From: Dehalococcoidia bacterium
GTDB lineage: Bacteria; Chloroflexota; Dehalococcoidia; DSTF01; JACRBR01
NCBI GenBank assembly: GCA_015478665.1
Contig: JADMII010000002.1
Span: 1 to 64,000 of the forward strand
DNA: 64,000 nucleotides
Direction: 5' to 3'
The notes beneath the pieces are model-generated. The model did not search any database. It was not told where the DNA came from and saw only the letters and a program-made list of their open reading frames with translations. Positions 11,449 to 44,700 of this stretch are shown here, piece after piece. The stretch's first letter is position 1. Each line of letters opens with the position of its first letter. The translations under genes and the position numbers were made by a program.

Positions 11449-14346
11449 ATGGAATCGAATCAGATACGGGACACATTCCTTCGTTTCTACGAGGAGCGCG
11501 GCCATACGCGCGTGCCGAGCGCCTCGCTCGTGCCGCACGGCGACCCGACGCTGCTCTTCACGAGCGCCGGCATGGTGCCGTTCAAGCCGTACTTCATGGG
11601 CCTGGCGGCGCCGCCCGCGACGCGCCTCACGACGGTCCAGAAGTGCTTTCGCACGACGGACATCGCCGAGGTCGGTGACTACAGCCACCTCACGTTCTTC
11701 GAGATGCTCGGCAACTTCAGCATCGGCGACTACTTCAAGCAGGAAGCGATCGCCTGGGCGTGGGAGCTGCTGACGCGGGGCTTCGGCCTGGACCCGGCGA
11801 AGCTGTGGGTGTCGATCTTCCTCACGGACGACGAGGCGCACGAGATCTGGCGCGCGACGGGCGTGCCCGAGGAGCGCCTCCACCGCTACCCGGAGGAGTA
11901 CAACTACTGGTTCAGCGGCGACATCGGCCCCTGCGGACCGAACAGCGAGATCTTCGTCGACCGCGGCCCACGGGAGGAGTGCGCGTTTTGCCGCGCCGGC
12001 GCCTGCAAGCCGAACCTGGAGCCGGACTGCGGCCGCTTCCTGGAAGTGTGGAACCTGGTCTTCATGACGCTCTTCCAGGCGGAAGACGGCAGCCGCACGG
12101 AGCTGCCGAAGAAGAACATCGATACCGGCTCGGGACTCGAGCGCGTGACCTGCATCCTCCAGGGGAAGGACACGGTCTACGAGACGGACATCTTCGCCCC
12201 GATCATCGAGCGCATCGAGCAGCTGACGGGCGTGCGCTACGGCGCCGAAGACCATGCGGTCGACGTCGCCGTGCGCGTCGTCGCCGAGCACACCCGCGCG
12301 GCGGCGTTCCTCATCACCGATGGCGTGATGCCCTCGAACGAGGGCCGTGGCTACGTGCTCCGTCGCATCCTGCGGCGCGCGGTGTACTTTCTGACCCAGC
12401 TGGCGGGCGAAGGCGGCGGCGCGGCGGCGCGCGGCGAGACGAGACCGCCCGACGATGCGGCGTCCGCAGACGCAGCGCCGGAGCGCCGCGGACGGGCGAC
12501 GACGATGCTCGACCGCGTGGCCGATGCGGTGATCGCGAAGATGTCCTACGCCTACCCCGATCTCGCCGAGCGCGGGCCGTTCGTGAAGCGCCTGCTGGCG
12601 GCCGAAGAGGCGAAGTTCGGAGAGACGCTTGAGCGCGGGCGGGTCGTGCTCGTGTCGGTGCTGACCGGCGCGACGGCGCGCGGCCTGACGACGCTCTCGG
12701 GCCACGATGCCTTCCGCCTGTACGACACCTTCGGCTACCCCATCGAGCTGACGCAGGAGATCGCCCGCGAGTACGGCTACGACGTCGACATCGATGGCTT
12801 CGGGCGCGAGCTCGAGGCGCAGCGCGAGCGCGGGCGCGCGGCGGCGAAGTTCGAGTACGACGGGGGACGCGTCGCGGCCTATACGGAGCTGGCCTCGCTG
12901 CGCTCGACGTTCGTCGGCTACACGACGAGCGAGCAGGCGAGCAGCGTCGCGGCCGTACTCACGCGCGACGGCGTGCGCGCGCAGGCGGGCGACGGCGAGC
13001 CGGTCGAGCTCGTCCTCGCCCAGACGCCGTTCTACCCGGAGGGCGGCGGCCAGGCGGGCGACAGCGGCGAGATCATCGGCCCCAGCGGCCGCGTCGTCGT
13101 CGAAGACACACAGTCGCCGGCAGAGGGGCTGATCGTGCATCGCGGCTACGTCGCCGAGGGCGTGATCGCCGTCGGCGACGACGTGACGGCGCGCGTCGAA
13201 CCGGCGCGCCGGCGCGCGTCGCAGCGCAACCACACGGCGACGCACCTGCTGCACGCGGCGCTGCGCGAGGTGCTCGGCGCGCACGTGCGGCAGGCCGGCT
13301 CGCTCGTCGCGCCGGACCGCCTGCGCTTCGACTTCACTCACATCGAGCCGATGAAGCCGGACGAGCTGGCGGCGGTGCAGCGGCTGGTCAACGAGAAGGT
13401 CCGCGCGGACATCGAGGTGCACCCGCACGAGGAGTCGTACGAGGACGCGCTGGCGGGCGGCGCGATGGCGCTCTTCGGCGAGAAGTACAGCGCGAAGGTG
13501 CGGGTGGTGGATATCTGCGAGCACACGCTGCTCGCGATGGCAGACGACGGACAACAGACAACAGAGCGGGCCGGCGAGCTCAAAGAGCAAACAGCACACA
13601 GCAACGCCGACATCCCGGAACTGCCCCCCTCTCCACGGCAGCGGGGAGCGGCCGGGGGAGAGGTGTCCCATTGCTTTTCGCGCGAGCTCTGCGGCGGGAC
13701 GCATGTCTCGCGCACGGGGGAGATCGGTACCTTCATCATCGAATCGGAAGGCAGCGTGGGCTCTGGCGTGCGGCGCATCGAAGCGCGCACCGGCGCGCTG
13801 GCGGACGCCTTCGTGATCGAGCAGCAGGAGCGCATCGCCCGCCTGGCGCGCCAACTGAGCGCGGCGCCTGCCGAGCTCGAGGCGCGCGTCGAGGCGCTGC
13901 GCGCGGATCTCGAGGCCGAACGCCGGCGCGCGCAGCAGTTCGAGCGTCAGGCCGGCCGCGCCGAGGTGGATGCGTTGCTCGATGCGGCGGAGCGCGTCCC
14001 GCTCGGTGACGGCGACGTAGCGGCGTTGCTGGTCGCGCGCGTACCGGCGGCCAGCGTCGACGCCATGCGGGAGATGGTCGATCTGCTGCGCGAGAAGCTG
14101 GGGCGGGCGGTCGTCGTGCTCGGCGCCGTGGTCGGCGAGCGGCCGGCGTTCCTCGCGATGGTGTCGCCGGAACTGACCTCGCGCGTGCACGCGGGGAATC
14201 TGCTGAAGCAGGTGGCGGCGGTCGCCGGCGGCAGCGGCGGCGGCCGGCCGGAGATGGCGCAGGCCGGGGGCAAGGACGCCGCGGCGCTCGACGCCGCGCT
14301 GTCGCAGGCGCGCGCGGCCGTGCGGGCCGCGCTCGGCGACGGCTGA
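11449..14346 (+). CDS. alaS: alanyl-tRNA synthetase with in-frame insertion
   Basis: 965 residues, about 80 longer than most family members. It charges tRNA-Ala with alanine and edits Ser/Gly mischarging. Order: class II catalytic core (residues 1-250; FTSAGMVPFKPYFMG, TVQKCFRTTDI), tRNA-recognition helices, editing domain with the zinc ligands HTATH (595-599) and CGGTH (748-752), then coiled coil and C-Ala domain. Two insertions are seen. A low-complexity Ala/Gly/Arg stretch lies near residues 321-350. A 53-residue segment (690-742) separates VRVVDI from FSRELCGGTH, which are normally almost contiguous. The second is built from repeat DNA found elsewhere in intergenic regions. All catalytic motifs are intact, so the gene is probably functional. 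Confidence 0.96.
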   Translation: MESNQIRDTFLRFYEERGHTRVPSASLVPHGDPTLLFTSAGMVPFKPYFMGLAAPPATRLTTVQKCFRTTDIAEVGDYSHLTFFEMLGNFSIGDYFKQEAIAWAWELLTRGFGLDPAKLWVSIFLTDDEAHEIWRATGVPEERLHRYPEEYNYWFSGDIGPCGPNSEIFVDRGPREECAFCRAGACKPNLEPDCGRFLEVWNLVFMTLFQAEDGSRTELPKKNIDTGSGLERVTCILQGKDTVYETDIFAPIIERIEQLTGVRYGAEDHAVDVAVRVVAEHTRAAAFLITDGVMPSNEGRGYVLRRILRRAVYFLTQLAGEGGGAAARGETRPPDDAASADAAPERRGRATTMLDRVADAVIAKMSYAYPDLAERGPFVKRLLAAEEAKFGETLERGRVVLVSVLTGATARGLTTLSGHDAFRLYDTFGYPIELTQEIAREYGYDVDIDGFGRELEAQRERGRAAAKFEYDGGRVAAYTELASLRSTFVGYTTSEQASSVAAVLTRDGVRAQAGDGEPVELVLAQTPFYPEGGGQAGDSGEIIGPSGRVVVEDTQSPAEGLIVHRGYVAEGVIAVGDDVTARVEPARRRASQRNHTATHLLHAALREVLGAHVRQAGSLVAPDRLRFDFTHIEPMKPDELAAVQRLVNEKVRADIEVHPHEESYEDALAGGAMALFGEKYSAKVRVVDICEHTLLAMADDGQQTTERAGELKEQTAHSNADIPELPPSPRQRGAAGGEVSHCFSRELCGGTHVSRTGEIGTFIIESEGSVGSGVRRIEARTGALADAFVIEQQERIARLARQLSAAPAELEARVEALRADLEAERRRAQQFERQAGRAEVDALLDAAERVPLGDGDVAALLVARVPAASVDAMREMVDLLREKLGRAVVVLGAVVGERPAFLAMVSPELTSRVHAGNLLKQVAAVAGGSGGGRPEMAQAGGKDAAALDAALSQARAAVRAALGDG
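13516..13674 (+). repeat. in-frame repeat-derived insertion within alaS
   Basis: 159 bp (53 codons) with no counterpart in AlaRS of other bacteria at this place. The left half (13541-13566) resembles the ACAGACGAC tandem repeat at 16561-16620. The right half (13624-13667) is a copy of the CCCCTCTCC...GGGGAGCGGCCGG palindromic repeat seen at 10909, 31373 and 44472. Length is a multiple of three and no stop is introduced. Confidence 0.65.
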
Positions 14347-16411: not shown

Positions 16412-16560
16412 GCGCACGTCCCTACAAATGCGAACGCGCCGTTCCGCCGGCGCAACCTCAGTATGGGGGACGGCATCGCCGCAGACAAGGAAGGGTCGGG
16501 GCGCCGGGGTTCCGGCAGGCATCGAGGCGGCGTAGGATGGCGACGGTCGCGGAAGGGCGA

Positions 16561-16620
16561 ACAGACGACCGACGACAAGAGAACAGACGACCGACGGCAA
16601 GAGAACAGACGACAGAGAAG
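16561..16620. repeat. 22-bp tandem repeat ACAGACGACCGAC-type
   Basis: Two units of 22 bp (16561-16582 and 16583-16604) that differ at one base, plus a shortened third (16605-16620), directly upstream of the SDR gene. Related text occurs inside the alaS insertion at 13541-13566. Confidence 0.65.
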
Positions 16621-31319: not shown

Positions 31320-31640
31320 AGTGCCCACCGGCCACTGCCGTCGGTAGAGCGCACAACACGCGGGCACGTTTCGCCTCACCAGTGGGGAGCGGCCGGCGGC
31401 GGGGTAGCGCGGAGTCTGTTGCGCTTGGGCCGGCGCCAGCAGGCCATCCTCGAGCACGAGCCGCAGCGCCGATGTCGTCGAAGAGGACGACGAGCGCGGG
31501 ATCCTCGTAGCGCTGCACGGTGCGGGCGCGCCACGGGCGGTGCGCCGCGCGCGCGTCTCACGACGCAGCACGCGCACGCCCGGCGTCCGGTGGTTCAGCC
31601 GGGGGCGCAAGCGGGTGGTGCGATGGCGGGATGTGGACGT
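31320..31640 (-). pseudogene. possible frameshifted gene remnant
   Basis: Read on the minus strand, codon usage with GC-rich third positions passes from one frame to another twice. VRVLRRETRARRTARGAP is followed by RTVQRYEDPALVVLFDDIG in a second frame, and then by LRLVLEDGLLAPAQAQQ in a third. Joined, this reads like one soluble protein. A copy of the palindromic repeat (31373-31408) lies in its 3' part. I do not recognise a family. It could also be chance; confidence is low. Confidence 0.25.
31373..31408. repeat. dispersed palindromic repeat, degenerate copy
   Basis: GCCTCACCAGTGGGGAGCGG followed by CCGGCGGCGGGGTAGC. The GGGGAGCGGCCGG core is identical to that inside the alaS insertion. 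Confidence 0.5.
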
Positions 31641-44346: not shown

Positions 44347-44700
44347 GTGGGAGTGGGGCCGGTGGTGACGGATGCCGACCGAAGAGACTCTTCCGGCTAT
44401 CGCTCAGGGTGACCGGCGGCGCGGGCGAGCGATCGGGTCACAGCTCCACGATCGCCCGCATGCCGATCGATCCCCCTCCCCCCTTGGGAGAGCGGCCGGT
44501 GGTGAGGGTGTTCGACCGAAGAGACTCTTCCGGCTATCGCTCAGGGTGACCAGCGGCGCGGGCGAGCGATCGGGTGACACGCCCACGATCGCCCGCATGC
44601 TGCTCGCTCCCCTCCACACTGTGGAGAGGGGCGGGGAGACGTCGTCGCTCCGTCTCCCCGCCCCCCGCTTGCTGGAGCGCGGCCGGCGGGTGACGGAGTG
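44347..44700. repeat. repeat-rich intergenic block with 137-bp tandem duplication
   Basis: Two units of about 137 bp start at 44361 and 44498 with GGTGGTGA and share CGAAGAGACTCTTCCGGCTA and most of what follows. Each unit pairs a TGTCATTCTG-type repeat in inverted orientation (44377-44414, 44514-44551) with a GGGAGAGCGGCCGG-type palindromic element (44472-44512, 44607-44638). A further degenerate copy follows (44653-44700). CCCCTCCACACTGTGGAGAG at 44609-44628 can fold as a hairpin and may also end the regulator transcript. Confidence 0.7.

Follow-up and report, generated by a model that had tools for sequence, protein, structure and literature searches.

Genomic repeat DNA as probable coding sequence in an editing-domain loop of a Dehalococcoidia alanyl-tRNA synthetase

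We start from alaS, the gene for alanyl-tRNA synthetase (AlaRS), which lies whole within the 64,000-nucleotide stretch of DNA analysed here (the window). The product is an AlaRS of the bacterial type, passing the curated cut-off in a profile search (814.8 bits against 457 for TIGR00344), with the Pfam domains tRNA-synt_2c, tRNA_SAD and DHHA1, and the gene is the sole AlaRS match both in the window and in its own genome (98.9% complete, 66 contigs). The gene, the two motifs of its editing site and the loop that concerns us are as follows.

11449 to 14346, plus strand: alaS, alanyl-tRNA synthetase, 965 amino acids, frame uninterrupted, single copy.
13231 to 13245, plus strand: intact HTATH motif (residues 595-599) of the zinc/active site in the editing domain, with invariant alignment columns H595 and H599.
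13516 to 13674, plus strand: the whole variable loop, codons 690-742, from alignments and from AlphaFold2 (pLDDT below 50 at 695-738).
13690 to 13704, plus strand: CGGTH motif, residues 748-752, intact, directly 3' of the insert, with invariant columns C748, G750 and H752.

A sequence-only reading of this DNA had proposed an in-frame insert at codons 690-742, and those codons do correspond exactly to 13516-13674. The distance from HTATH (595) to CGGTH (748) is 153 residues in the window's AlaRS, while it is 101-102 in 50 of the 72 counted matches (AlaRS loci across Bacteria) and 101-107 in most other bacteria; the remaining spacings among the 72 are at most 118, except for the congener G002/REEB247 (200) and one family member (129). 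The editing motifs HxxxH and CxxxH themselves are intact, their four zinc-site residues (H595, H599, C748, H752) being invariant in the alignment. The extra stretch is therefore real, but its size as first given, 53 codons, has to be reduced: the end codons are the native Cys690 and Cys742, which flank the loop and are kept by all family members with a readable loop, and 51 residues lie between them, shortly before CGGTH. Measured against the short loops of the family, the gain is 24-41 residues, and the repeat-derived part spans about 13535-13670, leaving out both native end codons.

For the comparison within the family we use seven genomes: G000 (the window's own species), G001 and G002 (its congeners), and G003 to G006 (other genera of the same family). 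G002 appears to be the public assembly REEB247, whose locus L041 has identical loop DNA. Between the two cysteines, the other genera have 10 (G003), 16 (G005), 22 (G006) and 27 (G004) residues, in short loops that are hydrophilic and rich in His and Asp, whereas the window's genus has 51 (G000), 71 (G001) and 98 (G002). Given 10-27 residues in the other genera and 51-98 in this one, the alignments show that a short, hydrophilic, Cys-flanked loop was already present in the family and expanded in the window's genus. The three expanded loops also differ in sequence, so that no conserved version of the insert is shared even among close relatives, as the sequence-only reading required.

An AlphaFold2 model of the window's AlaRS, built on 48 aligned AlaRS sequences (mean pLDDT 87), matches solved structures of AlaRS and of AlaX editing domains (Z of 48.7 for 9a7x, 33.5 for 3wqy and about 21 for AlaX). 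The flanking strands, residues 683-690 and 742-747, are confidently placed, and residues 695-738 have a pLDDT below 50. In the model the enzyme is otherwise intact, and the insert has the look of a disordered loop at its surface, next to the unaltered residues of the zinc site.

The DNA of the loop holds the following repeats, to which we add the one comparable array elsewhere in the window.

13541 to 13565, plus strand: heptamer remnant 1, CAGACAA type, about 3.6 units, 2 mismatches, encoding part of ..DDGQQTTE (TRF period 7; score 21).
13581 to 13604, plus strand: heptamer remnant 2, CAGCAAA type, about 3.4 units, 2 mismatches, encoding part of KEQTAHSN (TRF period 7; score 20).
13624 to 13667, plus strand: dispersed palindrome CCCCCCTCTCC..GGGGAGCGGCCGGGGGAGAGG, 44 bp, encoding PPSPRQRGAAGGEV, from the whole-genome search; not in the congeners' alaS.
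16559 to 16616, plus strand: intergenic heptamer array with a 22-bp higher-order unit, GAACAGACGACCGACGACAAGA, from TRF and heptamer alignment.

The insert was first described as a mosaic of two otherwise intergenic repeat types lying in frame in an essential gene, and this description stands, the two types being the heptamers and the dispersed palindrome. Its ACAGACGAC stretch had been rightly taken as repeat-derived, but what it actually is, a heptanucleotide tandem repeat and the main ingredient of the insert, had gone unrecognised. The intergenic counterpart that had been pointed out for it within the window is the array at 16559-16616, the only other site in the 64 kb that scores as high against heptamer arrays. 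Both heptamer stretches of the insert are found independently by TRF. Their local-alignment scores against heptamer arrays are 21 and 20; when the insert is shuffled by dinucleotides, the mean score is 10.4 and 21 is reached in only one of 2000 shuffles, and we reject a chance origin of these pieces.

In G001 and G002 the loop DNA consists of clean tandem heptamers (CAGCAAA, CAGCAGA, CAGACAA) that read QQTANSK, QQTADGR, EQTTDSK and the like, seven residues per 21 nt, in the manner of (QQTANSK)n. The insert of the window's species also bears the heptanucleotide unit in tandem, in degenerate form, with two remnants left (25 and 24 nt, 2 mismatches each), and the peptide of remnant 2, KEQTAHSN, matches KEQTANSK of the congeners in the alignment. 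We infer from position and similarity, rather than from a clean alignment, that the remnants descend from the same array as the congeners' repeats. As the congeners show, it is the heptamer arrays, not the palindrome, that appear to have opened the insert first.

These heptamers are a lineage-specific dispersed repeat, confined to one family bar one stray match. The pattern ACAGCAAACAGCAAACAGC is found with at most one mismatch in 5 of 8 family genomes, and among 237 other genomes of the class in one, as a single match. With two mismatches it has 7, 33, 73, 21 and 61 matches in G000, G001, G002, G005 and G006, respectively. A CAGACAA-type pattern gives 21, 167 and 110 matches in G000, G001 and G002, counts for which a reversed-pattern control is unusable because an array read backwards fits the degenerate pattern again. 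The unit of 7 nt stands in tandem at many, mainly intergenic sites, as in a dispersed repeat of the STRR kind. At sampled loci, scored with a home-made gene finder trained on local coding sequence, 31 of 34 arrays are intergenic in G001, 20 of 27 in G002 and 13 of 21 in G006, yet 75-83% of the fetched DNA is coding. In the window's own genome all 17 of the other heptamer sites checked are intergenic, so alaS is the only intragenic heptamer site found there. A literature search found no paper on heptanucleotide repeats in Chloroflexi.

Where arrays do lie inside genes, they are found in eight genes with recognisable products (in G001, G002 and G006): alaS, mutS, a CoA-ligase, a CN_hydrolase, two epimerases, murT and thyX. 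The heptamers are in frame in domain III of MutS in G002 (L206:835-3576) and in a shorter form in G001, with none in four other genera; in a CoA-binding/succinyl-CoA-ligase-like protein in G001 and G002; in the CN_hydrolase in G002; and in murT, thyX and the C-terminal parts of the two epimerases in G006. One of these epimerases (L282:15084-16277) has a long C-terminal tail made almost wholly of mixed heptamer units (QQTTDNR, QQTANSK). Two further candidates were not counted: a lipoprotein match in G006 (L285) was rejected as an insertion for its uncertain start and lack of a Pfam match, and an ORF in G004 (L317) was set aside as doubtful.

In all eight genes, each counted once and alaS included, the array is in the sense orientation with the T-poor strand coding, for which random orientation would give a chance of 2^-8 = 0.004. 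Simple arithmetic accounts for much of this. Because 7 = 1 mod 3, a heptamer array gives an identical heptapeptide repeat in all three frames (CAGCAAA is translated as QQTANSK and CAGACAA as QQTTDNR), and a T-free strand cannot contain a stop codon; the phase in which a sense-oriented array enters a gene is therefore immaterial, and gain or loss of three units at a time (21 nt) preserves the reading frame. The sense strand also yields a hydrophilic peptide, the opposite strand FAVCCLL or LSVVCCL, and it is the combination of a frame-independent peptide, a stop-free strand and a hydrophilic product that explains why only the sense orientation is seen.

The mutS case carries an observation of its own. 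This is a mismatch-repair gene, altered by a repeat whose stability MutS would help maintain, and the window's species has a non-repeat loop where G002 has its heptamer insert. A heptamer-altered MutS as the cause of the array bloom is not supported, since G005 and G006 have arrays but a MutS without heptamers.

We turn to the palindrome. In the whole genome it has 17 matches at E<=1, the best other copy at 6e-9 and four others with E < 1e-4, for a family that is loosely defined. The claim that it has dispersed relatives thus holds, although, of the copies named in the window, those at 31373 and 44472 match only in part. Most of the better copies lie between genes; one is in a membrane protein of the same genome, in its C-terminal tail, and an Amidohydro_3 gene, also in the same genome, contains a related palindrome. 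The alaS copy, which is imperfect, is not among the 25 longest inverted-repeat pairs listed for the window. It has no GTAG/CGTC tag; GTAG stands beside a few other copies and is not conserved. The REP-type transposase PF01797 has no match in G000 (98.9% complete) and one in each congener. Since the palindrome is absent from the alaS loops of G001 and G002 and present only in the window's species, while heptamers are present in those loops, it is best read as a putative later addition in the window's lineage. Elsewhere in the window, at 44348-44612, a unit of 137 bp is duplicated in tandem, each copy with a GGGAGAGCGGCCGG stretch resembling the palindrome family (TRF score 435).

The same AlaRS loop has been filled elsewhere with other DNA. 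In G004, of another genus, it carries that genome's own unrelated 9-mer ACCACGAAGGACACGAAGG (L014), which has 77 matches in the genome against 0 for a control pattern; of 31 sites sampled, 28 lie between genes, and of the copies inside genes the one in the AlaRS loop is the clearest. This 9-mer is abundant in G004 and nearly absent from the other family genomes, and the dominant dispersed repeat seems to vary from genus to genus. The loop of the CoA-ligase, in turn, holds heptamers in G001, G002 and also G005 (another genus), with none in G000, G003 and G006. With the AlaRS and CoA-ligase loops both filled in separate genera, we conclude that some loops are permissive and are refilled repeatedly. 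A second low-complexity insert of alaS may belong here.

12403 to 12507, plus strand: second low-complexity insert in alaS, residues 319-353, from the alignment, with AlphaFold2 pLDDT below 50 at 323-349.

In the congeners this insert is about 80 amino acids long with tandem units such as AASDVRRGA, and it is missing in other genera; we regard it as a related phenomenon with a candidate repeat origin. The alaS genes of G001 and G002 (L119, L120) also share a stretch of about 60 residues, inserted in frame near residue 411 (RTRLCVNWAGDWSGWYGRDWPKQLETE...), which is not repeat-like, is missing in the window's species and the outgroups, and has no significant Pfam match.

Several known systems resemble this one in part. 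The Rickettsia palindromic elements (RPEs) are reportedly due to the work of Ogata and Claverie. RPEs are dispersed repeats that lie in frame in housekeeping genes unrelated to one another, where they persist as inserts in the protein (PMC10969869, PMC3733652). The window's repeats, too, sit in frame in a housekeeping gene and are kept as a protein insert, so that the likeness to RPEs that had been suggested is fair as a functional analogy. Membership is unsupported, because RPEs are palindromes of about 100-150 bp from Rickettsia, whereas the present insert is mainly non-palindromic heptamers with a secondary palindrome of 44 bp (against ~150), in the unrelated Chloroflexota; it works like an RPE but is not one, by size and make-up. 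A repeat in a synthetase outside Rickettsia is not without precedent: short palindromes (REPs) have been recorded within genes of several bacteria, tRNA synthetases and DNA repair genes included, with tRNA synthetase cases in X. oryzae, E. lithoralis and S. alaskensis (PMC3733652). The REP/RAYT systems (GTAG/CGTC families) share with our case a short palindrome within a tRNA synthetase gene; they differ in that here PF01797 is missing from the own genome, the listed copies show no conserved GTAG/CGTC tag and the insert is mostly heptamer-derived.

Closer in unit length are the TAACTGA heptamers of Beggiatoaceae and Cyanobacteria, which are dispersed and mostly intergenic with a few sets within ORFs (PMC4679880), as are those of the window's family. 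TAACTGA, however, creates stop codons whichever forward frame is read, and where it falls within an ORF this is mostly at the end of the protein or in a hypothetical protein (PMC4679880); CAGCAAA/CAGACAA arrays, by contrast, have one strand free of stops and lie inside conserved enzymes. A further likeness is that dispersed tandem heptamers are found within a functional gene. This is also said of the cyanobacterial STRR heptanucleotides, which, reportedly from the work of Vioque in 1997 cited in PMC2858038, are dispersed in tandem and also occupy the RNase P RNA gene. The STRR unit sequences differ from CAGCAAA/CAGACAA, and an STRR expands an RNA gene where the repeats here expand protein loops. 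What is new is a stop-free heptamer family inside conserved enzymes, its sense bias, and one AlaRS loop reused by different repeats.

Taken together, these results lead us to read the insert, with a probability of roughly 85%, as repeat DNA of the genome that a permissive surface loop in the editing domain of AlaRS has captured as coding sequence. It is improbable that the whole insert goes back to a single in-frame insertion of a mobile palindromic element, be it of the Rickettsia (RPE) or the REP type. A palindrome with dispersed, mainly intergenic relatives does sit within it, and a related palindrome lies within the Amidohydro_3 gene of the same genome. The palindrome, however, accounts for only 44 of the 159 nt and is far smaller than RPEs of ~150 bp, the own genome is without a REP-type transposase, and the congeners' longer inserts are heptamers without this palindrome, which refutes a palindromic-element origin of the whole. 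We consider an assembly or binning artefact very unlikely indeed. Repeats misassemble easily, and the public genomes of near relatives were assembled from metagenomes; against this, three separate assemblies of the genus (G000, G001 and G002/REEB247) have mutually different, in-frame inserts at the same site in an open frame, and at 25, 24 and 44 nt the repeats of the window's own insert are too short, and too far diverged from other copies, to be likely to collapse or be joined wrongly.

Two alternatives would give the loop a purpose. It might be a selected functional element, such as an extension by which the editing domain binds a metal or contacts tRNA, with the repeat look being secondary, and the family-wide conservation of both flanking cysteines, the His/Asp-rich short loops and the adjacency to the zinc/editing motifs would fit. 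We hold this for doubtful, though, since the loop varies in sequence and length even within a genus, is built in two genera from that genome's own dispersed repeat, and is predicted to be disordered. There is also a small chance that capture is adaptive rather than neutral, the AlaRS loop (with a few others, such as those of the CoA-ligase and of MutS domain III) being a contingency site that 21-nt slippage resizes and through which selection tunes the editing of mischarged tRNA, or repair. The loop is probably not adaptive.

Most likely, then, a permissive surface loop has repeatedly, and neutrally, captured stop-free repeats, neutrality being the part that we infer. Arrays would land or grow through slippage or recombination, and selection would purge most landings, removing the harmful ones; sense-oriented arrays of length 3n in disordered loops could persist nearly neutrally. 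In the window's species, the array may later have decayed and then taken up the palindrome, and the loop would be translated and tolerated with the zinc/editing site undisturbed.

The heptamers suggest a simple rule for how a repeat becomes protein: a unit length that is not a multiple of 3, and a T-free strand without stops. The rule predicts the strict sense-strand orientation that is observed in conserved enzymes. The refilling of the AlaRS loop by unrelated repeats across genera makes the idea of protein uptake sites for junk DNA directly testable, and it points to a way in which lineage-specific protein inserts can arise fast outside Rickettsia.
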